Source of the DNA: Acidobacteriota bacterium
GTDB taxonomy: Bacteria > Zixibacteria > MSB-5A5 > GN15 > FEB-12
NCBI GenBank assembly: GCA_035529075.1
Contig: DATKXK010000010.1
Location: 229,401 to 293,400, forward strand
Reading direction: 5' to 3'
Length of the DNA stretch: 64,000 bases
How positions within the stretch are numbered: position 1 is the stretch's first letter; every line of letters begins with the position of its first letter. Position numbers and translations under genes: made by a program. The notes beneath the pieces were generated by a model. It worked only from the letters and a program-made list of their open reading frames with translations, was not told the origin of the DNA and did no database searches. Shown here in pieces: positions 55,380 through 64,000 of this stretch.

Positions 55380-55500
55380 TCTCAGCGTGCCGCCGCTTTG
55401 GCATGATTCCCGTTCGCGACTATAGTCAAACGTTCGCGACGCGAGTGCCGTTTGCGTGATAATAGCACAATCCGCGACTTTTTCAAGGTGCTAAATTGCC

Positions 55501-55529
55501 TTGACTTAAAGGACCGGGGCGTCTACCAT
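55501..55529 (+). promoter_or_regulatory. promoter of the mlaEFD operon
   Basis: TTGACT (55501-55506), 17 bases and TACCAT (55524-55529). The start site near 55536 leaves only about nine leader bases before the chosen ATG. Confidence 0.55.
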
Positions 55530-55544
55530 TTCTCCGGGCAGGAT

Positions 55545-56333
55545 ATGATTGTCGTTGATACCATTAACGGTTGGCTCAAGCGTTTCGCTTCTGAGTGCCA
55601 GAACATCTTCTTCTTTGCGCTGCGGATGGTAGCCGCCCTGTTCTCACGGCCGATCTACCTGCGCGAGACCATGGAGCAAATGTACCTGATCGGCGTGGGC
55701 TCGCTGTTTCTTATTGTCCTTACCGGTCTCGTCTCGGGACAGGGGTTTGCCCTGGCCTTCTCCCAGGAGCTGGCGCTGTTCGGCGCCAAGGATTACCTGG
55801 GCCGGATCATGTCGCTGGCGATCGTCCGGGAGCTGGGGCCGAGCCTGGCCGGCCTGATGATAGCCGCGCGCGTCGCCTCGGGGATTACCGCCGAAATCGG
55901 CGCCATGAAGTCTTCCAACCAGCTTGACGCGCTGGTGGCATTCGGTATCGATCCGTTCAAGAAGATCGCGGCGCCGCGGCTCATTTCGCTCATGGTCATG
56001 GTGCCGGCTCTCACCATCATCTGCGACACCGTGGCAATCCTCGGCGGGTGGATGGTGGCGACGCTTATTGCCAATGTTACTTCCACCACATACTGGGCAA
56101 ACGTGAGGTATAAACTGACCTTCGGGAACATGCTCATGGGCTTCCTGAAACCGGTTGTCTTCTCGCTGATAATTGCGTTCATATCATGCTATAAGGGATT
56201 TACGTCCGAGGGCGGCACCAAGGGCGTGGGGCGCGCCACGACGAATTCAGTGGTTCTGTCCTCCATACTCATACTGGTGTTCAGTTTTCTGATTACGAAG
56301 ATTCTCGGCCCGGTGGTCAGGGGATACATGTGA
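55545..56333 (+). CDS. mlaE: MlaE-family lipid transport permease
   Basis: The ATG at 55545 is chosen because a promoter lies directly upstream and the resulting 262 residues match the family length; an in-frame TTG 93 bases earlier would add a poorly conserved segment. Five or so membrane spans are visible, with the family signature IVRELGPSLAGLMIAARVAS and IGAMKSSNQLDALVAFGIDP. With MlaF and MlaD it forms the inner-membrane complex that moves phospholipids between the two membranes. Its stop shares GTGA with mlaF. Confidence 0.92.
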   Translation: MIVVDTINGWLKRFASECQNIFFFALRMVAALFSRPIYLRETMEQMYLIGVGSLFLIVLTGLVSGQGFALAFSQELALFGAKDYLGRIMSLAIVRELGPSLAGLMIAARVASGITAEIGAMKSSNQLDALVAFGIDPFKKIAAPRLISLMVMVPALTIICDTVAILGGWMVATLIANVTSTTYWANVRYKLTFGNMLMGFLKPVVFSLIIAFISCYKGFTSEGGTKGVGRATTNSVVLSSILILVFSFLITKILGPVVRGYM

Positions 56334-57124
56334 TCGAGTTTAGGAACATAGACTTTTCCTATGGCGACCAGGTCGTGCTCACGGACGTCTCGTTCAGGGT
56401 CGGCCGGGGAGAATCCGTGGTCGTTATGGGCCCGTCCGGTTCCGGGAAATCGACCATCCTCCGGCTGATCCTCGGCCTTGAGTGTCCGCAGTCGGGCGAA
56501 ATCCTGATCAACGGCCGGAACGTGTGCGTCATGAAGGAGGCCGAGAAGCGGGAAATCCGTAAGCAGATCGGCATGGTGTTTCAGGACGGTGCCCTGTTCG
56601 ACTCCATGACGGTGGGGGAAAACGTCGGCTACTACCTGCTCGAGTACACGAACATGACTTGGCCCGAGATCAGTCAGAAAGCGTCACGGATGCTCGGCTT
56701 TGTCGGTCTGGATCCGGACGAGGTGGGCGACAAGCTCCCGGAGCACCTCTCGGGTGGCCAGCGGCGGCGGGTGGCTATCGGCCGGGCACTCTTGTCCACG
56801 GATCCCAAGATCATGCTGTATGACGAGCCCACCACGGGGCTGGACCCGGCCATGACGGACGCCGTGCTGTCGCTCATCATGAAGCTGCAGGAGACCAGAG
56901 GAATCTCGTCGGTGGTGGTCACGCACCAGATCGCCGACGTCCTCGGGATACCCGGCCGGTTCGTGGTGCTTACCGACGGGCGGGTGGTGTTTGACGGTAC
57001 GCTCGAGGAGTTGCGCGAAAGTCGCGAACTCGATGTGCTTAGTTTTCTGGCGCCGTTCCGGCTGTCCATGGCCGACGTGGCGCGGCGGAAATTCATAACT
57101 ACTCAACGCGCGGGCGGAGAATGA
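56330..57124 (+). CDS. mlaF: MlaF-family ABC ATPase
   Basis: A 264-residue ATPase starting at GTG overlapping the mlaE stop. Motifs are GPSGSGKST (Walker A), LSGGQRRRVAIGRALL (signature), MLYDEPTTGLDP (Walker B) and VVTHQIADVLGI (H-loop). The order mlaE-mlaF-mlaD fixes the assignment. It energises lipid transport through the MlaE permease. Confidence 0.93.
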   Translation: MIEFRNIDFSYGDQVVLTDVSFRVGRGESVVVMGPSGSGKSTILRLILGLECPQSGEILINGRNVCVMKEAEKREIRKQIGMVFQDGALFDSMTVGENVGYYLLEYTNMTWPEISQKASRMLGFVGLDPDEVGDKLPEHLSGGQRRRVAIGRALLSTDPKIMLYDEPTTGLDPAMTDAVLSLIMKLQETRGISSVVVTHQIADVLGIPGRFVVLTDGRVVFDGTLEELRESRELDVLSFLAPFRLSMADVARRKFITTQRAGGE

Positions 57125-57175
57125 GCAGCCGGTTGGCGCACGCAGCGCAGGTTTGAGAGAAGCGGGGTCGAAGAT

Positions 57176-58111
57176 ATGAAGCGTTCGGTCAGGCTGAAGT
57201 GGAGTAACCTGCAGGTAGGGGCCCTGATCACGGTCGTCATTGCCGTCGCGCTCTGGGCTTCATTCAGCGGCGGTGGAACATCGATATTCGAGCGCAAGCA
57301 GAAGTTCGTCTGTTATTTCAGGAACGTCGACGGCCTGGTGCGCGGCTCTCCGGTGTGGATGGCCGGCATGGAGGTCGGTAACGTCCGTTCCCTGGAGTTC
57401 GCCAACCTCGATTCCCTGCGCCGGGTGCGCGTCGTCTGCGCCGTCAAGACATCCATCTGGCCACAGCTGACCTCCAAGTCCGAGGTGCTCCTCGGCAGCA
57501 TCGGATTCCTGGGTGACAAGTACATCGAGATCATCCCGGGCGACGTCGGCGGCGTGCCGATAGCGCCGATGACTATTATCCGTACCCGTGACGCGGGTGA
57601 CGTCAAGGCAGTGTTCAAAGAAGCGGAGCAGGCCGCCGCCACCGCCGGATCGGTCCTCGCGAACATCGACACGCTGCTCGACCGGATGAACCGGGGGGAA
57701 GGCACGCTGGGCAAGATTGCCACCCGGGACGATTTGTACATCCAGATGACGAAGCTGGCGGCCAACCTGACGAAGCTGACGGCGGACCTTCAGCGTAACC
57801 AGGAGCGCGTGGTCTCGTCGATGGAGCGACTGTCGCTTTCCGTTGAGAACGTCAGCGATCGGGTCAACGAGAATACCGGGACGCTCGGCAGGATCATGAA
57901 CGATCCCGCTCTTTACGACAACCTGAGCGCCACCTCGGCGCGGCTGGACACCATCATGATGCGGATAAACTCGGCCGACGGCAGCCTCGGGCTGCTGGTT
58001 CAGGACACGGCCTTATACACGGAAATCGTGGAACTGCTCGACCGGGTGAGCAATCTCGTTTCGGATATCGAGAAAAACCCGCGCAAGTACTTCAAGTTCT
58101 CGGTGTTTTAG
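57176..58111 (+). CDS. mlaD: MlaD-family MCE-domain protein
   Basis: A 311-residue membrane-anchored protein with one N-terminal span (LQVGALITVVIAVALWASF) and an MCE domain (about 40-125). This contains YFRNVDGLVRGSPVWMAGME, VLLGSIGFLGDKYIEIIPG. MCE rings form the periplasmic lipid channel on MlaFE. Residues 150-310 are a long helical, heptad-rich tail with GTLGKI/GTLGRI repeats, longer than in E. coli MlaD. It may form a tube toward the outer membrane as in PqiB- or LetB-like proteins; that is inference. MlaC and MlaB are not next to it. Confidence 0.9.
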   Translation: MKRSVRLKWSNLQVGALITVVIAVALWASFSGGGTSIFERKQKFVCYFRNVDGLVRGSPVWMAGMEVGNVRSLEFANLDSLRRVRVVCAVKTSIWPQLTSKSEVLLGSIGFLGDKYIEIIPGDVGGVPIAPMTIIRTRDAGDVKAVFKEAEQAAATAGSVLANIDTLLDRMNRGEGTLGKIATRDDLYIQMTKLAANLTKLTADLQRNQERVVSSMERLSLSVENVSDRVNENTGTLGRIMNDPALYDNLSATSARLDTIMMRINSADGSLGLLVQDTALYTEIVELLDRVSNLVSDIEKNPRKYFKFSVF

Positions 58112-58189: not shown

Positions 58190-60469
58190 TTACACCGTCT
58201 GGACCGCCAGCATATACTCCAGCAGACTCAGCACCCCCTGCTTGCCGGCGTCGCCGACTTCCAGCGGCGGGCCGACACAGCTCGGGCACCCTGACGCACA
58301 CGGGCAATGCCGCACGTGTTCGCGGCAGGCCTCGATCAGGTGATCCGATTCCGCGAAGATCTTTTCGGACAGCCCCACCCCGCCGGGGATATTTTCGTAG
58401 ATGTACACGGTCGGCCGTTCCGTAAACGGCGCCCGGACTTGGGAGACCGAGCGCAAGTCGCGGTGATCGCACATTACCCACAGGGGGGCTATCTTGCCGA
58501 GAACGTTGGCCAGGCCTCGCAGCGCGCCGCCGAAGTTCTGGCGCTCGACATTGACCTTGAGTGGGACGTCGCCGGGGAAGGAGTACCAGAAAGCATGGGT
58601 GTGCATTTCCAGTTCCGGCATTTTCAGTTCACCGGAGCCGACGTTTTCGTGGGTCTGGAACTTGACCTTCTTGAACAGCACGGTGGTGGAGGAAATCGAC
58701 ACTTCGCCGTGGCAGCTGCGGGCGTCGTCGAGTGTTTTCTTCTCGTCGTCGGTCGACAGGACTTTCAGGTCGGTCTTGGTCTCGGCGTCGGTGAAGTAGT
58801 CAACCTCGACCTCCTTGACGTACGCCTTCTTTCCCTCCCAGTCGAGCCTGGTCACCTGGTACTGTTCCGCGCCGTGAAGGTAGATGGCCTCCGGGTGCAG
58901 GAAGATGGGGGCGGAGTAGTAGTCCACCTCGCCGATCACCTCGGCGTTGCGTGATTCGTTGAGGATGACGAAGTTGTCCGGCGAGGCCGACCGCAACGAT
59001 ACCTGCTGGGCAGGGTAAATCTCCGACGACCAGTGGTAGCGGTCCGCCGTTCGCCGCACGACGTTTTCGGAGGCCAGGTAGTCAAGGATCTTGCCGCTGC
59101 CGATGTCCCGGGCGTACTCGTCCTCGTCAAACGGCAATTCAAAGACCGCACACTTGAGGTGGTTGGTCTTGATTATCAGGTTCTCGGGATCGATGATACC
59201 GGACTCCGGCGTACGCTCGAACACGTACTTGGGCTCGACGCACAGGAACTGATTTATGGGCGAGGAATTGGCCACCATTACGGTCAGGGAGTTACCGGAG
59301 CGCCGTCCGGCTCGTCCCGCCTGCTGCCAGAGCGAAGCGATTGAGCCGGGATAGCCGACGATTATGGAGACGTCGAGCGCCCCGATATCGATACCGAGCT
59401 CGAGCGCGTTGGTCGATACCACCCCCGTGACGGTGCCGTTGCGCAGCCCCTGTTCGATGCGGCGCCGCTCGTTCGGAAGGTAACCGCCCCGGTAACCCGC
59501 TATAGTGATACCGTGCCCGAAATCCCCCTTCAGTTCGCGTTGCAGGTACGTCAGCAGGACTTCGACATACAGCCGGTAGTGCGCGAACACGATGGTCTGA
59601 ATCTTCTCTCTGAGGAAAAGCGCGGCCAGCCTGGCCGCTTCGTTGACGGCCGACTTGCGGATACCCAGTTGCGGATTGATGACCGGCGGGTTGTACAGGA
59701 TGAAGTGCTTTTCGCCGGCCGGCGCGCCGTTGTTGTCCACCAGCGTGACGGGGCGGCCGATAATGCGCTCAGCCAGCTCATCCGGATTGGCTATGGTAGC
59801 CGAACAGCAGATAAACACCGGATCGGACCCGTAGAACCGGCAGATGCGGCTCAGCCGTTTGATGACGTTGGCAAGGTGGGAGCCAAATATCCCCCGGTAG
59901 TGGTGGACCTCGTCGATCACCACGTACTTGAGGTTCTCAAAGAGCTTGATCCACTTGGTGTGGTGCGGCAGGATGCCGGTGTGAAGCATGTCGGGGTTGG
60001 TGATGACGATGTGCCCCGCACTGCGGACAGCCCGCCGGGCATTGACCGGCGTGTCCCCGTCGAAGGTGTACGTCTTGATGTCGACCTCGAGCCTCTGCAC
60101 CATGTCGTGCAGTTCCGACAGTTGATCCCGCGAGAGCGCCTTGGTGGGGAAGAGGTACAGGGCGCGGGTCCCCGGCGACTGGAGAATCCGGTTGAGTACG
60201 GGGATATTGTAGCAGAGCGTCTTGCCCGAAGCCGTCGGCGTGACCACGACCACGTCCTTGTCATCCATGATCGCTCGTATAGCTTCACCCTGGTGGGTGT
60301 ACAGGCGCGAGATACGCTTTTCGGCCAGAGCGGAGATCAGCCGGCGGTCGAGGCCGTCGGGAAAATCAACGTACCGCGCCTCCCGAGCGGGAAAGGTCTG
60401 CCAGTGGCTGATACACCGGCTGACGGCACGGTCACTTCTGAGAAAGTCAATGATCTGTTCGAGGTTCAT
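58190..60469 (-). CDS. DEAD/DEAH-box helicase with DUF1998 (MrfA/YprA-like)
   Basis: A 759-residue superfamily 2 helicase. Motif I is TPTASGKT (K83), motif II is DEVH in VVIDEVHHYRG, motif III SAT in ICCSATIANPDEL and motif VI QAGRAGRR. The C-terminal DUF1998 region has the zinc cysteines C-P-C-x3-C-x2-C (HCPCASGCPSC) near the end. In Bacillus, MrfA is a mitomycin-repair helicase of this type. It is 21 bases downstream of the archaemetzincin-like gene and likely shares its transcript. Confidence 0.92.
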   Translation of the reverse strand: MNLEQIIDFLRSDRAVSRCISHWQTFPAREARYVDFPDGLDRRLISALAEKRISRLYTHQGEAIRAIMDDKDVVVVTPTASGKTLCYNIPVLNRILQSPGTRALYLFPTKALSRDQLSELHDMVQRLEVDIKTYTFDGDTPVNARRAVRSAGHIVITNPDMLHTGILPHHTKWIKLFENLKYVVIDEVHHYRGIFGSHLANVIKRLSRICRFYGSDPVFICCSATIANPDELAERIIGRPVTLVDNNGAPAGEKHFILYNPPVINPQLGIRKSAVNEAARLAALFLREKIQTIVFAHYRLYVEVLLTYLQRELKGDFGHGITIAGYRGGYLPNERRRIEQGLRNGTVTGVVSTNALELGIDIGALDVSIIVGYPGSIASLWQQAGRAGRRSGNSLTVMVANSSPINQFLCVEPKYVFERTPESGIIDPENLIIKTNHLKCAVFELPFDEDEYARDIGSGKILDYLASENVVRRTADRYHWSSEIYPAQQVSLRSASPDNFVILNESRNAEVIGEVDYYSAPIFLHPEAIYLHGAEQYQVTRLDWEGKKAYVKEVEVDYFTDAETKTDLKVLSTDDEKKTLDDARSCHGEVSISSTTVLFKKVKFQTHENVGSGELKMPELEMHTHAFWYSFPGDVPLKVNVERQNFGGALRGLANVLGKIAPLWVMCDHRDLRSVSQVRAPFTERPTVYIYENIPGGVGLSEKIFAESDHLIEACREHVRHCPCASGCPSCVGPPLEVGDAGKQGVLSLLEYMLAVQTV

Positions 60470-60490: not shown

Positions 60491-61051
60491 CTATATTACC
60501 CGAATCAATTCGCGGCGGCATATGTCGCAGAACTTCTCCGACTTGTTGTCAATGTCGAGCATAATCTGGCTGAAGTAGTTCACGCACTTGGGGTTTCGGC
60601 ATTCCGTCAGGTCGAACAAGTGGCCCAGTTGGTGCACCACCTCTTTAAAAAGCCGCGGGTAAATTTTGCTTTCGTCCTCCGGCAGCCCGTAGAACTCCTG
60701 CCGCATCCGGTAAAGTGCCACCACGGCGGTCCCCGAGAGCGTATCACCCCAACTCATCACGTAACTCTCATCGGGTAAATAGAGGTCCTCTTCGCAGATG
60801 GCAATCACTTTTTCCCGGTTGTTCGCCTTGGTGCGCTCTATCTTGGAGAGTACGACCTGGGCGTAGTACTGGTTGCGGACAACGTTGTGTCCCTCCTGGG
60901 GCATTTTCATGCCCTTGAGGATATCCACCGAGCGATTGAATATGGGCCCGAGGTGAGTGGCCAGCTTGTTGACCATCATGAAGTCAACATCACCCAGCGG
61001 GACTACGACAATTTTCGGCTTCAGAATGGCCATGGGACGCGCTGTTTTCAC
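60491..61051 (-). CDS. archaemetzincin-like protein with degenerate active site
   Basis: The GTG at 61051 overlaps the stop of the upstream 64-residue gene (GTGA), giving 186 residues; an ATG six codons later (61033) is an alternative. The N-terminal KIVVVPLGDVD and the C-terminal cysteine set (C151, C156, C175, C178) match archaemetzincins. The protease motif HExxHxxGxxHC instead reads HQLGHLFDLTEC: catalytic Glu141 is Gln, Gly147 is Asp, the third histidine ligand is Glu150, and the Met-turn Met is absent. The structural cysteine zinc site is kept but peptidase activity is probably lost or altered. It is coupled to a tiny zinc-ribbon gene and a helicase gene. Confidence 0.8.
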   Translation of the reverse strand: MKTARPMAILKPKIVVVPLGDVDFMMVNKLATHLGPIFNRSVDILKGMKMPQEGHNVVRNQYYAQVVLSKIERTKANNREKVIAICEEDLYLPDESYVMSWGDTLSGTAVVALYRMRQEFYGLPEDESKIYPRLFKEVVHQLGHLFDLTECRNPKCVNYFSQIMLDIDNKSEKFCDICRRELIRVI

Positions 61052-61242
61052 TTCTTTGCCACGAAGAAGCGACTCTTTGAACCTGTTGGCGAGACCTTTA
61101 CCACCGCCCTGGCCGCACATCGGGGGCACCACCCCACGAAGGCGCTCCCGTCACGGTTGAGGTAAATGCGAGAGTATATGTTGCAACACCTGAAGTGCAT
61201 GCCTATGAAAGGCCGCTTTCGCCTGCCGCGTTCTTCGGTCAT
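61048..61242 (-). CDS. small zinc-ribbon-like protein
   Basis: A 64-residue protein, ATG at 61242 after GGGG. It has the pattern RPFIGMHFRCCNIYSRIY...GWCPRCAARAVVKVSP, with a CC pair and a CxxC pair that could bind one metal. Its stop overlaps the GTG of the archaemetzincin-like gene. The family is small and uncharacterised but conserved in sequence, to my knowledge; function unknown. Confidence 0.75.
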   Translation of the reverse strand: MTEERGRRKRPFIGMHFRCCNIYSRIYLNRDGSAFVGWCPRCAARAVVKVSPTGSKSRFFVAKK

Positions 61243-61361: not shown

Positions 61362-62036
61362 TTACAATTGGGATTTCCACTCCTCGACAATGCGTACGGA
61401 TGAAGAGGAGCCGAGTCGGTCCGCTCCGGCCTGCAGAAGCTCCCGGCACTGTGAAAGTGTTTTGATCCCGCCTGCGGCCTTGACTTGAATCCGGCCGTCA
61501 GCGGTCTGGTGCAAAGTCCTTACCTGATCCACGGTCGCCGGGCCGTAAAAGCCCGTGCCCGTTTTGACAAACTGTGCGCCGCTGTTAATGACGGCCCGGG
61601 TGGCGTCCTGTTGCTGCTTCTCGGTCAGTTCCGGGGCCTCAATAATGACCTTCAGCAGGACATTGTAGGGGAGACCGTCGCGGATTTTCCTGATTTCGGC
61701 CTCGGCCCTGCTGAATTCGCCGGAGGCCAGCCAGCCGATATTGGCGACCATATCGATCTCGACCGCGCCGTCACCGGCCGCCTTTGCAGCCTCCATGAGC
61801 TTGACGTCAGTTCGAGAAGCGCCGAGCGGGAATCCGACCACAGAGCACACCTTTACCTGTGATTTCTGGAGAAACCGTGTGGCGAAGGCTACCCATGTCG
61901 GATTGACGGCAACGGCATATAAATTGCATTCGCCGGCTTCCCAGCATGCCGTGACGATATCGCTTTGATCGAGACTCGATTTGAGCGCGGCGTGGTCGAA
62001 CCGGCAGTTGAAATCCCGGGGCAACAAATCCTTCAA
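61362..62036 (-). CDS. deoC: deoxyribose-phosphate aldolase
   Basis: A 224-residue TIM-barrel aldolase cleaving 2-deoxyribose 5-phosphate to acetaldehyde and glyceraldehyde 3-phosphate. Schiff-base K158 lies in QFVKTGTGFYGPAT, with D95 (EIDMVANIGWLASGE) and K186 (QVKAAGGIKT). The start is a TTG (62036) preceded by a GAGG-like site. It lies 13 bases downstream of deoB, forming a nucleoside salvage pair. Confidence 0.95.
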   Translation of the reverse strand: MKDLLPRDFNCRFDHAALKSSLDQSDIVTACWEAGECNLYAVAVNPTWVAFATRFLQKSQVKVCSVVGFPLGASRTDVKLMEAAKAAGDGAVEIDMVANIGWLASGEFSRAEAEIRKIRDGLPYNVLLKVIIEAPELTEKQQQDATRAVINSGAQFVKTGTGFYGPATVDQVRTLHQTADGRIQVKAAGGIKTLSQCRELLQAGADRLGSSSSVRIVEEWKSQL

Positions 62037-62049
62037 GCGAGGTCCTCCC

Positions 62050-63231
62050 TCACTGCCTGACGTCTTTCAGGAACGAACGTCCCGTCACGGGCACATCGAA
62101 GCCGAATAAACCGGCCAGCGTCGCAGCCACGTCGGCAAACGTCTCGCGCGTGCCCAGATCAACGCCGGATTTCGCGTACCTGCCGTAGACCAACAGGGGC
62201 ACGTACTCGCGCGTGTGATCCGTGGACGTCTCCATAGTCGGATCACAGCCGTGGTCGGCTGTGATGATCAGCAGGTCGTCGCCGCGCAGCAGCGGCAGCA
62301 ACTCGCCCATTCGCCCGTCGAATTGTTCGAGACCCCGGGCGAAGCCGCGCGCGTCGTTTCGATGTCCCCAGAGTTGGTCAAAATCAACGCAGTTGGCAAA
62401 GATAAGCTCGTGCTGGTGATCGTACCGAACCATCTGCCGAACGGCGTCCATCACCTCGGTGTTGTTCTCGGTCTTGACCCGTTCGTGGATGCCGTGGCCG
62501 GCGAAAAGGTCCCATATCTTTCCCACGGCGAAGACATGACGGCCGTTGGCGGCAAGATGATCCAGGATCGTCCGGCCGGTAGGTGGCAGCGAGAAGTCCC
62601 TGCGGCGCGAAGTGCGGACGAAGAAACCGGGTTCGCCGGTAAACGGTCTGGCGATAACGCGCCCGACGCCGTAATCGCCCTGGCATACGTCGCGCGCGAT
62701 CAGGCAGATTTCGTAGAGGCGTTCAACGGGGCAGACTTTTTCGTGAGCGGCCAACTGGAATACCGAATCTGCCGATGTATACAGGATCAGCGCCCCGGTG
62801 CTCAAATGTTCATGCCCCAGCCGCTCAATGATCTCAGTGCCGCTGGCCGCGACGTTGCCAATGGTCTTGACGCCGGCTTTCTCCTCGAACCGCCCGACCA
62901 GATCGTCGGGAAAGCCGTCATGAAAGAGCGGAAGCGGTTCGTCCAGGGTCAGGCCCGCGATTTCCCAGTGGCCCGAGGTAGAATCCTTGCCGGCCGACCT
63001 CTCCGCCATGCGCCCGAAACAGGCAATCGGCGCCGGTGCCGGCGGGATTCCTTTTATGGCCGCGATGTTGCCGAGTCCGAGCTTCTGGCAGTTCGGCATG
63101 TTCAGCCCGCCGACCGCTCCGGCCAGATTCGGAAGAGTTGCGGCGTGATCATCGCCGTAATCGGCGGCATCGGGAAGAGCCCCCACGCCGCAGGCATCAA
63201 TGATGATAAGGATTACTCGATTGAACGGCAT
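62050..63231 (-). CDS. deoB: phosphopentomutase
   Basis: A 393-residue alkaline-phosphatase-superfamily enzyme interconverting deoxyribose 1- and 5-phosphate (and ribose forms). Signatures are ILIIIDACGVGALPDAADYG at the N-terminus with metal ligand Asp, RMAERSAGKDSTSGHWEIAG, YTSADSVFQLAAHE and the C-terminal ITADHGCDPTMETSTDHTRE. It supplies deoC downstream with deoxyribose 5-phosphate. Confidence 0.96.
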   Translation of the reverse strand: MPFNRVILIIIDACGVGALPDAADYGDDHAATLPNLAGAVGGLNMPNCQKLGLGNIAAIKGIPPAPAPIACFGRMAERSAGKDSTSGHWEIAGLTLDEPLPLFHDGFPDDLVGRFEEKAGVKTIGNVAASGTEIIERLGHEHLSTGALILYTSADSVFQLAAHEKVCPVERLYEICLIARDVCQGDYGVGRVIARPFTGEPGFFVRTSRRRDFSLPPTGRTILDHLAANGRHVFAVGKIWDLFAGHGIHERVKTENNTEVMDAVRQMVRYDHQHELIFANCVDFDQLWGHRNDARGFARGLEQFDGRMGELLPLLRGDDLLIITADHGCDPTMETSTDHTREYVPLLVYGRYAKSGVDLGTRETFADVAATLAGLFGFDVPVTGRSFLKDVRQ

Positions 63232-63258: not shown

Positions 63259-64000
63259 TCACATTTGCTTGAAACGTTTAAGGACGTACTCAATATCATA
63301 TTCAATGGCTACCTTGAGAGCCCTTTCCTCGCCCTTCTCCAATGTGTAGCGGTCTCCGTCGAGTATCCAGCGTTCTCTCTCCAGTACCACAAACCCTTCC
63401 TTGTACGCGAAATAGATCACGCCCCTGGCAGTTACACGGTCGACGCCGTGCCTCTGAGTCGTATCCTGGGGCTTCGCTTCAATGGGCAGAATCAAATTCC
63501 CGTCATAGCCGATAACTACGCAGTCGTAGCCGCGTTCGCGCGCGAAGGACTTGATCTCGTATGTCATCGAGGCCGTCATCTCCTCGCCCTCGGAGATCAC
63601 CTTGTAGGACTGTGTCCACGTGTAACCCTGGGAGATCTCGCCCTCCGGGAAGACCGGCATCCCCTGTTCATAGAAGTTTTTCAGGTACGTCCCGGAACCT
63701 TGGTGTTCCTCTGAAGTGAACTCGAAATCCACCACCCGGCCGCTGGGCGTAATGTACAGGGCCAACTCCGGTCCGGCCTCGATTGTGTCGGCGGCCGACG
63801 AGTCGACCTTGTCAAAGTGCTTATAGTGATAGATCCTGTTGTCCACCACCTCGGCAACGGTGTCATCGACCATCCGCCGGACGTACAACTCCTGTTCGGT
63901 CGTGATCTCGCTGGTCCGGTCGTGAATGGTGGAATCCCCTGAGCGGACCAGGACGCTTCCCCTTGTCACCTGCTCGAAGGCCAGCTTCATGCCCGGTTTG
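63259..64000 (-). CDS. hypothetical protein, 5' end beyond window
   Basis: The frame is open through base 64000 (reading back, PGMKLAFEQVTRGS), so the internal ATG at 63990 is probably not the start. The visible 247 residues are a mixed beta-rich soluble domain with alternating Glu/Tyr/Val strands (GVIYFAYKEGFVVLERERWI) and no recognised motif. It looks like an exported beta-barrel-like or lipocalin-like domain seen in hypothetical FCB proteins, which is only an impression. It precedes deoB by 27 bases. Confidence 0.6.
   Translation of the reverse strand, partial: KPGMKLAFEQVTRGSVLVRSGDSTIHDRTSEITTEQELYVRRMVDDTVAEVVDNRIYHYKHFDKVDSSAADTIEAGPELALYITPSGRVVDFEFTSEEHQGSGTYLKNFYEQGMPVFPEGEISQGYTWTQSYKVISEGEEMTASMTYEIKSFARERGYDCVVIGYDGNLILPIEAKPQDTTQRHGVDRVTARGVIYFAYKEGFVVLERERWILDGDRYTLEKGEERALKVAIEYDIEYVLKRFKQM

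Follow-up and report, generated by a model that had tools for sequence, protein, structure and literature searches.

The genome of a member of Candidatus Zixiibacteriota encodes an archaemetzincin with a degenerate protease motif, and its relatives reveal that a metzincin active site can vanish phylum-wide while strong purifying selection preserves the fold and the structural zinc site. This protein, named AmzP here, is encoded in the window, the 64,000-nt stretch of DNA that was analyzed, behind a small basic protein for which the name ZR was also coined in this work and ahead of a helicase of the MrfA/YprA type (Table 1). The archaemetzincins, whose biological role is largely unknown, gain with it a genetic partner, ZR, and a frequent neighbor, MrfA. 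AmzP probably serves as a non-catalytic scaffold that works with the basic ZR, and MrfA would be a frequent but dispensable companion of the pair.

Table 1 Features of the ZR-AmzP-MrfA locus and of its conserved upstream neighbors in the window
Feature	Position	Strand	Basis or remark
MrfA/YprA helicase (DEAD, Helicase_C, WHD_HRQ1 winged helix, MZB/DUF1998)	58190..60469	-	domain scan and homology
AmzP, degenerate archaemetzincin (M54 fold)	60491..61033	-	180 aa when read from the conserved ATG; GTG at 61051 is another possible start
AmzP structural Cys4 site, C145-X4-C150 ... C169-X2-C172	60518..60601	-	four Cys kept in 79/79 clade members
AmzP degenerate active-site helix HQLGHLFDLTEC (family: HExxHxxGxxHC)	60599..60634	-	sequence and alignment
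ZR, 64-aa basic zinc-ribbon-like protein	61048..61242	-	invariant CC...CPxC
deoC, deoxyribose-phosphate aldolase, conserved upstream neighbor	61362..62036	-	TIGR00126, 206.8 bits
deoB, phosphopentomutase, conserved upstream neighbor	62050..63231	-	TIGR01696, 460 bits
DUF6263 protein, conserved upstream neighbor	63259..64000, runs past window end	-	PF19777

AmzP keeps the archaemetzincin fold without the protease motif

The open reading frame of AmzP is present on the minus strand and carries HQLGHLFDLTEC in place of HExxHxxGxxHC, as the first-pass annotation had read it, together with all four structural cysteines named there. The Met-turn Met is also replaced, by Asn at residue 152 (CVN for CxM), so that both sequence marks of an active protease have been exchanged in the window protein. 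Its place among the archaemetzincins (M54) follows from sequence and fold homology and from the four Cys (CX4C...CX2C). The Pfam model Peptidase_M54 was matched with 67.2 bits against a cut-off of 24.4, and the structure model of AmzP (mean pLDDT 91.3) had its best PDB match in AfAmzA (4axq; Z 25.2, rmsd 1.7, 163 aligned residues, 28% identity), with M. kandleri AmzA also among the best solved relatives (Z 24.0). AfAmzA and the other archaeal archaemetzincins have the fold and the Cys4 zinc-finger element in common with AmzP, whereas the catalytic triad, Glu, Gly, and Met are replaced in AmzP. AmzP has lost the general-base Glu and the third zinc ligand, and usually the helix Gly and the Met-turn Met as well; it is therefore predicted to cut no peptides and to be a pseudoenzyme with a retained fold and structural Cys4 zinc site.

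The general annotation model NF033823 of NCBIfam (Zn-dependent archaemetzincin) nevertheless names the degenerate protein, which passes it by a margin of 0.5 bits (145.5 versus a cut-off of 145). Automatic annotation would probably call AmzP of the window a protease on this score, and the label of a Zn-dependent metalloprotease is very probably wrong.

Translational coupling of ZR and AmzP through a shared GTGA had been proposed for this locus. The overlap of a GTG at 61051 with the ZR stop codon exists in the window and the genes are tightly packed, but this GTG is probably not the start in use, and coupling through GTGA is doubtful: of the 67 orthologs with an adjoining ZR gene, 57 have as their likely start an ATG shortly 3' of the ZR stop, and just two could have a 4-nt overlap at all. 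In the window, amzP likely starts from the ATG at 61033, 14 nt past the ZR stop.

The helicase starts 21 bases past the amzP stop codon, which agrees with the first reading of the locus. Along its length it aligns with B. subtilis YprA/MrfA (6znp, E 4e-270), and this homology together with the helicase core, winged helix, and MZB marks the third gene as a full-length ortholog of MrfA/YprA. The parts available of two papers describe MrfA as paired with MrfB in B. subtilis (PMC11194089, PMC12458937), whereas here the neighbors are ZR and AmzP. RNase_H_2, the MrfB family, was named in none of the six window proteins scanned, and the MrfAB pairing is absent at the locus; an MrfB-like RNase_H_2 protein is encoded elsewhere above the cut-off in 20 of 21 genomes. 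With regard to the YprA-type defense systems DISARM, Dpd, Druantia, and ARMADA, PADLOC gave no more than general helicase matches for the helicase and none for ZR and AmzP, the neighbors having been scanned for some of the partners, and a reading as a defense system was tentatively set aside on these matches.

The active site decayed repeatedly in one Zixibacterial clade

Related loci were searched with the peptides FYGLPED[ED] and DILKGM[KR]xP, by which the non-Zixibacterial members are biased to those letters, and almost all of the named relatives found in this peptide-based search belong to Candidatus Zixiibacteriota. The thinned tree set, from which proteins shorter than 150 aa and those more than 88% identical to a kept row were left out, held 119 rows, 79 from the clade described below and 40 from outside it. 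A careful tree was built from 86 of these rows with the motif columns removed. The Zixibacterial proteins of the ZR/helicase type and a few relatives with neither gene form one clade in it (support 100/99), which was also recovered in a larger quick tree (SH-aLRT 97). Rows with Asn or His at residue 152 are referred to as the Met-lost group, a definition by residue and not by taxonomy.

While the four Cys never vary in the clade, the full catalytic motif is found in 1, the third His in 4, the catalytic Glu in 9, and the Met-turn Met in 28 of the 79 rows, and the last, by definition, in 0 of the 50 Met-lost rows. Outside the clade, all ten positions are kept in 40/40 rows. Among these rows are additional archaemetzincins, the second and third copies, from the same genomes of Zixibacteria, and one lineage can therefore carry an intact and a degenerate copy. 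Two intact archaemetzincins about 9 to 11 kb apart were observed at each of three loci (L058, L059, and L223). In the Met-lost rows, the base Glu is absent throughout (50/50), H134 is kept in 42 and H138 in 38, and Glu or Asp stands at the place of the third ligand in 25. A metal at the old site is possible, since two His remain in most members with the gene order of the window and an acidic residue is often found at the third place. H1 and H2 were also lost in several lineages (e.g., R..Q, D..F, and K..R), and the basal ZR-linked group has HExxHxxGxxN or its Gln form. The decay of the active site was repeated, since the trees require at least 6 changes for the loss of Glu and 3 to 4 for that of the third His. 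With the outside rows and one clade member intact, the ancestor seems to have had the full motif.

In variability, the columns of Gly and of the third His rank near the top (15 and 9 of 180), the Cys are invariant, and dN/dS ranged from 0.019 to 0.065 in the unsaturated pairs among the 25 closest Met-lost pairs listed, from which it follows that the protein is kept and its active site is not. Seven residues conserved in the clade and not outside, K7, E47, K64, E66, E74, D97, and N147, point to a new surface. A match was present in 56 of 61 genomes comprising the own genome and its near relatives, including 38/38 good assemblies, and some kind of archaemetzincin occurs in 121 of 132 genomes of the phylum. 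The conserved pseudoprotease suspected by the first-pass annotation is borne out by the motif loss, the invariant Cys, the low dN/dS, and the clade tree. Close homologs lack HExxHxxGxxH too, so local decay is not seen, and local decay or sequencing error as the source of the losses was rejected because relatives share them.

ZR is tied to AmzP rather than to the helicase

The positions G, CC, Y, CPxC, and G are invariant in ZR alignments of 47 and 35 rows, and the structure model has five strands (pLDDT 88.5, pTM 0.68). The protein is strongly basic, with a pI of 10.9 for the window copy and a median net charge of +8 in 35 rows. Pfam had no match for ZR of the window and scattered weak zinc-ribbon hits for other members, a profile search of the PDB gave nothing below E 0.17, and the structure matches were weak (Z ≤ 2.8) and comprised several zinc ribbons plus unrelated proteins.

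The order ZR-AmzP-MrfA is conserved among the relatives. At the testable Met-lost loci, ZR lies directly 5' of AmzP in 66 of 68 and the helicase directly downstream in 58 of 69; at the other clade loci, the figures are 25 of 39 and 19 of 39. Beside the archaemetzincin copies outside the clade, neither ZR (0/44) nor the helicase (0/44) was found. Family f2 has a 4-nt overlap of amzP with the helicase gene (gap -4, L048 to L052), and in family f3 the helicase is encoded elsewhere in the genome.

Among the 132 genomes, several of which are incomplete and related, ZR was counted in 93, and AmzP was present in every one of them (ZR without AmzP, 0/93). No close helicase was found in 18 of these 93; the dependence of ZR is thus on AmzP, the helicase being optional. 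The single-contig genome G074 keeps ZR and AmzP and has elsewhere a helicase match of just 42 residues; the pair without a close helicase is also found in G096 (100% complete) and in G003, G016, G031, and G085 (95 to 96%). In these counts, G032, G051, G098, G104, G105, and G113 were treated as having the other archaemetzincin type only, by score and, where fetched, by tree place, and weak ZR hits with stops (G093 and G117) as well as helicase hits at 35 to 36% identity (G099 to G102) were not counted. Since incomplete and related genomes are among the 132, Fisher values from these counts were given no weight. Outside the phylum, ZR was found in none of 16 genomes with intact archaemetzincins, while the same query matched 95 of the 132 Zixibacterial genomes.

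In 22 of 115 genomes, some of them complete, AmzP is present and ZR is not. All three His are kept in 0/66 ZR-linked rows and in 3 of the 13 clade rows without an adjoining ZR, at least one of them being lost in the other 10. As AmzP without ZR is found and has lost His as well, ZR is not the sole cause of the decay. ZR-less relatives of AmzP in families f12 to f14 (L182, L187, and L193) adjoin combinations of genes for DUF488, a radical SAM protein, and endonuclease V.

Gene surroundings and LexA boxes

Past the window end, an ECF sigma factor gene and a zf-HC2 anti-sigma gene lie on the same strand, 5' of DUF6263-deoB-deoC-ZR-AmzP-MrfA (L249:2037-3181, about 64136 to 65280 in window numbering). 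Each of the two was found at 23 neighborhood loci, and the pair is of interest because CarG, described below, acts on ECF sigma promoters. Other classes have upstream genes for an aminotransferase, a ROK protein, a glycosyltransferase, and a radical SAM protein. What stays constant is the ZR-AmzP core, with MrfA.

The dyad ACTGC-N8-GCAGT was found 5' of lexA at 3 of 5 identified lexA loci (12 loci fetched). At L234, L241, and L242 it overlaps a promoter-like TTGAC stretch and is a candidate Zixibacterial LexA box. The LexA-like dyad and the half-site TGGGCAGTA were absent from all of the 90 ZR upstream stretches (260 nt each). This negative result is weak: at the lexA of the own genome no more than a half-site is seen, the search covered just 260 nt, and the start of the operon may lie further 5'. 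An SOS operon was rejected on it, weakly. From the earlier description of a DNA-repair-type operon, the linkage with MrfA stands for most Met-lost loci, and the repair function is not supported: 18 genomes keep ZR-AmzP with no close helicase found, the 90 ZR upstream stretches hold no LexA-like box, and the genes further 5' are deoB/deoC, DUF6263, and those for the anti-sigma and ECF sigma factors.

At positions 55452 to 58111 on the plus strand, convergent with the helicase, lies what we take to be a gene set for a permease, an ATPase, and an MlaD/MCE-like protein. This set is also present 3' of the helicase, on the opposite strand, in relatives.

Relation to CarG

As described in the parts available of the cited papers, in CarG of Myxococcus xanthus Gln replaces the catalytic Glu; the protein lacks protease activity and exerts its effect on transcription together with CarD (PMC3427221, PMC8156234). 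Its motif is HQx2Hx2Ex2HC, CarD requires it to act at promoters of the ECF sigma type (PMC8156234, PMC4374960), and its binding was mapped to CarD residues 61 to 179 (PMC4374960). For archaeal archaemetzincins with the full motif, many assays are reported to have shown no activity, and the motif by itself is therefore no proof of it (PMC3427221). CarG and AmzP are alike in the archaemetzincin fold, the exchange of Glu for Gln, the helix Gly often turned acidic, the kept Cys4, the gene position directly behind that of the partner, and the lack of proteolysis, which for AmzP is predicted from the motif. Three His and the Met are retained in CarG, which partners with CarD (PMC3427221, PMC8156234), whereas AmzP of the window is without the third His and the Met and has ZR.

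The model NF033824 (Myxo_non_zincin), whose name indicates the CarG type, gave 89.2 bits for AmzP against a cut-off of 250 and was over the cut-off in none of 61 genomes. Intact archaemetzincins from other phyla scored 89 to 121 bits, a range spanning the score of AmzP; as AmzP scores like intact proteins, its loss was probably independent of CarG. The AmzP clade appears separate from CarG, as read from model scores and not from a joint tree. No stand-alone CarD was found in 21 genomes: PF02559 matched only frames of 931 to 1,192 aa, the size of TRCF/Mfd, in 19 of them and nothing in the other two, and CarD as the partner of AmzP was rejected.

The new role for the family that the first-pass annotation had foreseen is reduced in scope, since CarG is already a pseudo-archaemetzincin with a non-proteolytic role (PMC3427221, PMC8156234, as far as available), and NCBIfam already holds a model named "non-proteolytic archaemetzincin-like protein". 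What differs is the clade, which has lost more than CarG, and its partners. A published description of the AmzP/ZR family was not found in the literature on archaemetzincins, M54, Zixibacteria, pseudoproteases, and YprA, searched with subscription papers mostly outside its reach. In the portions available, a YprA preprint (PMC12458937) does not mention metzincin, zincin, protease, or zinc ribbon, and a review of pseudopeptidases (PMC11266112) does not mention archaemetzincin, M54, or CarG.

Proposed function of the AmzP-ZR pair

The retained fold of AmzP would act as a protein-binding scaffold. AmzP may bind ZR, perhaps via the seven clade-specific residues, and ZR, strongly basic, probably touches nucleic acid, so that the two could form a non-catalytic complex on DNA or RNA. 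ZR would bring the pair to the nucleic acid, and MrfA, where present, would profit from it as a co-expressed, frequent client or user and not as the reason for its existence. Against this reading stand the genomes with AmzP and no ZR, the His losses in clade rows with no adjoining ZR, the possible metal at the old site, and the inactivity in assays reported for archaemetzincins with an intact motif (PMC3427221).

It is possible but unlikely that the main task of ZR-AmzP is to assist MrfA in the repair of DNA adducts, by loading the helicase at lesions, by targeting it to them, or by restraining it there; the ancestor may then have been an active protease that freed DNA of proteins. The helicase directly 3' of amzP at so many clade loci, the gene overlap in family f2, the true orthology to MrfA, and the MrfB-like protein encoded elsewhere speak for such a role; the pair nonetheless occurs without a close helicase in 18/93 ZR genomes, including the six named above, family f3 encodes the helicase elsewhere, and the 260-nt stretches upstream of ZR hold no LexA-like box. 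A transcription cofactor like CarG, by which AmzP-ZR would modulate RNA polymerase or the upstream ECF sigma/anti-sigma pair, is unlikely. It would fit the role of the inactive CarG at ECF sigma promoters reported in the text available (PMC8156234, PMC4374960), the shared exchanges of Glu and often Gly, and the sigma pair upstream in the own genome and at other neighborhood loci, but stand-alone CarD is lacking in the 21 genomes, the sigma pair is absent beside ZR-AmzP in other classes, and CarG keeps the three His and the Met that AmzP does not.

That AmzP, ZR, and MrfA merely share a promoter is improbable: upstream genes that differ by class (deoBC versus aminotransferase-ROK) are as in loosely assembled operons, yet the ZR-AmzP order outlasts changed surroundings, the two genes are often less than 20 nt apart, and ZR is always accompanied by AmzP. 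AmzP is very unlikely to keep a changed catalytic or metal-sensing activity that rests on two His and an acidic third ligand. The frequent retention of H134 and H138, the acidic residue at the third place in half of the Met-lost rows, and HExxHxxGxxN in the basal group are in its favor, and set against them are the absence of the base Glu from every Met-lost row and the loss of H1 and H2 in several lineages, while the Cys4 site never varies.

The scaffold reading can be carried further, as a tentative though serious possibility, to an archaemetzincin that turned stepwise and phylum-wide into the non-enzymatic half of a ZR complex acting on nucleic acid and handing substrates to MrfA where present; pseudo-archaemetzincins would then have arisen a second time, independently of CarG. 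The steps in living lineages would be HExxHxxGxxH, HExxHxxGxxN, HQxxHxxGxxN, and then no ligands, and the order of loss is testable because intermediates still exist. According to the available text of PMC3427221, the eukaryotic human AMZ1 keeps HExxH and has Asn, Ser, or Thr for the third His, which is also replaced in the basal Zixibacterial group with HExxHxxGxxN.
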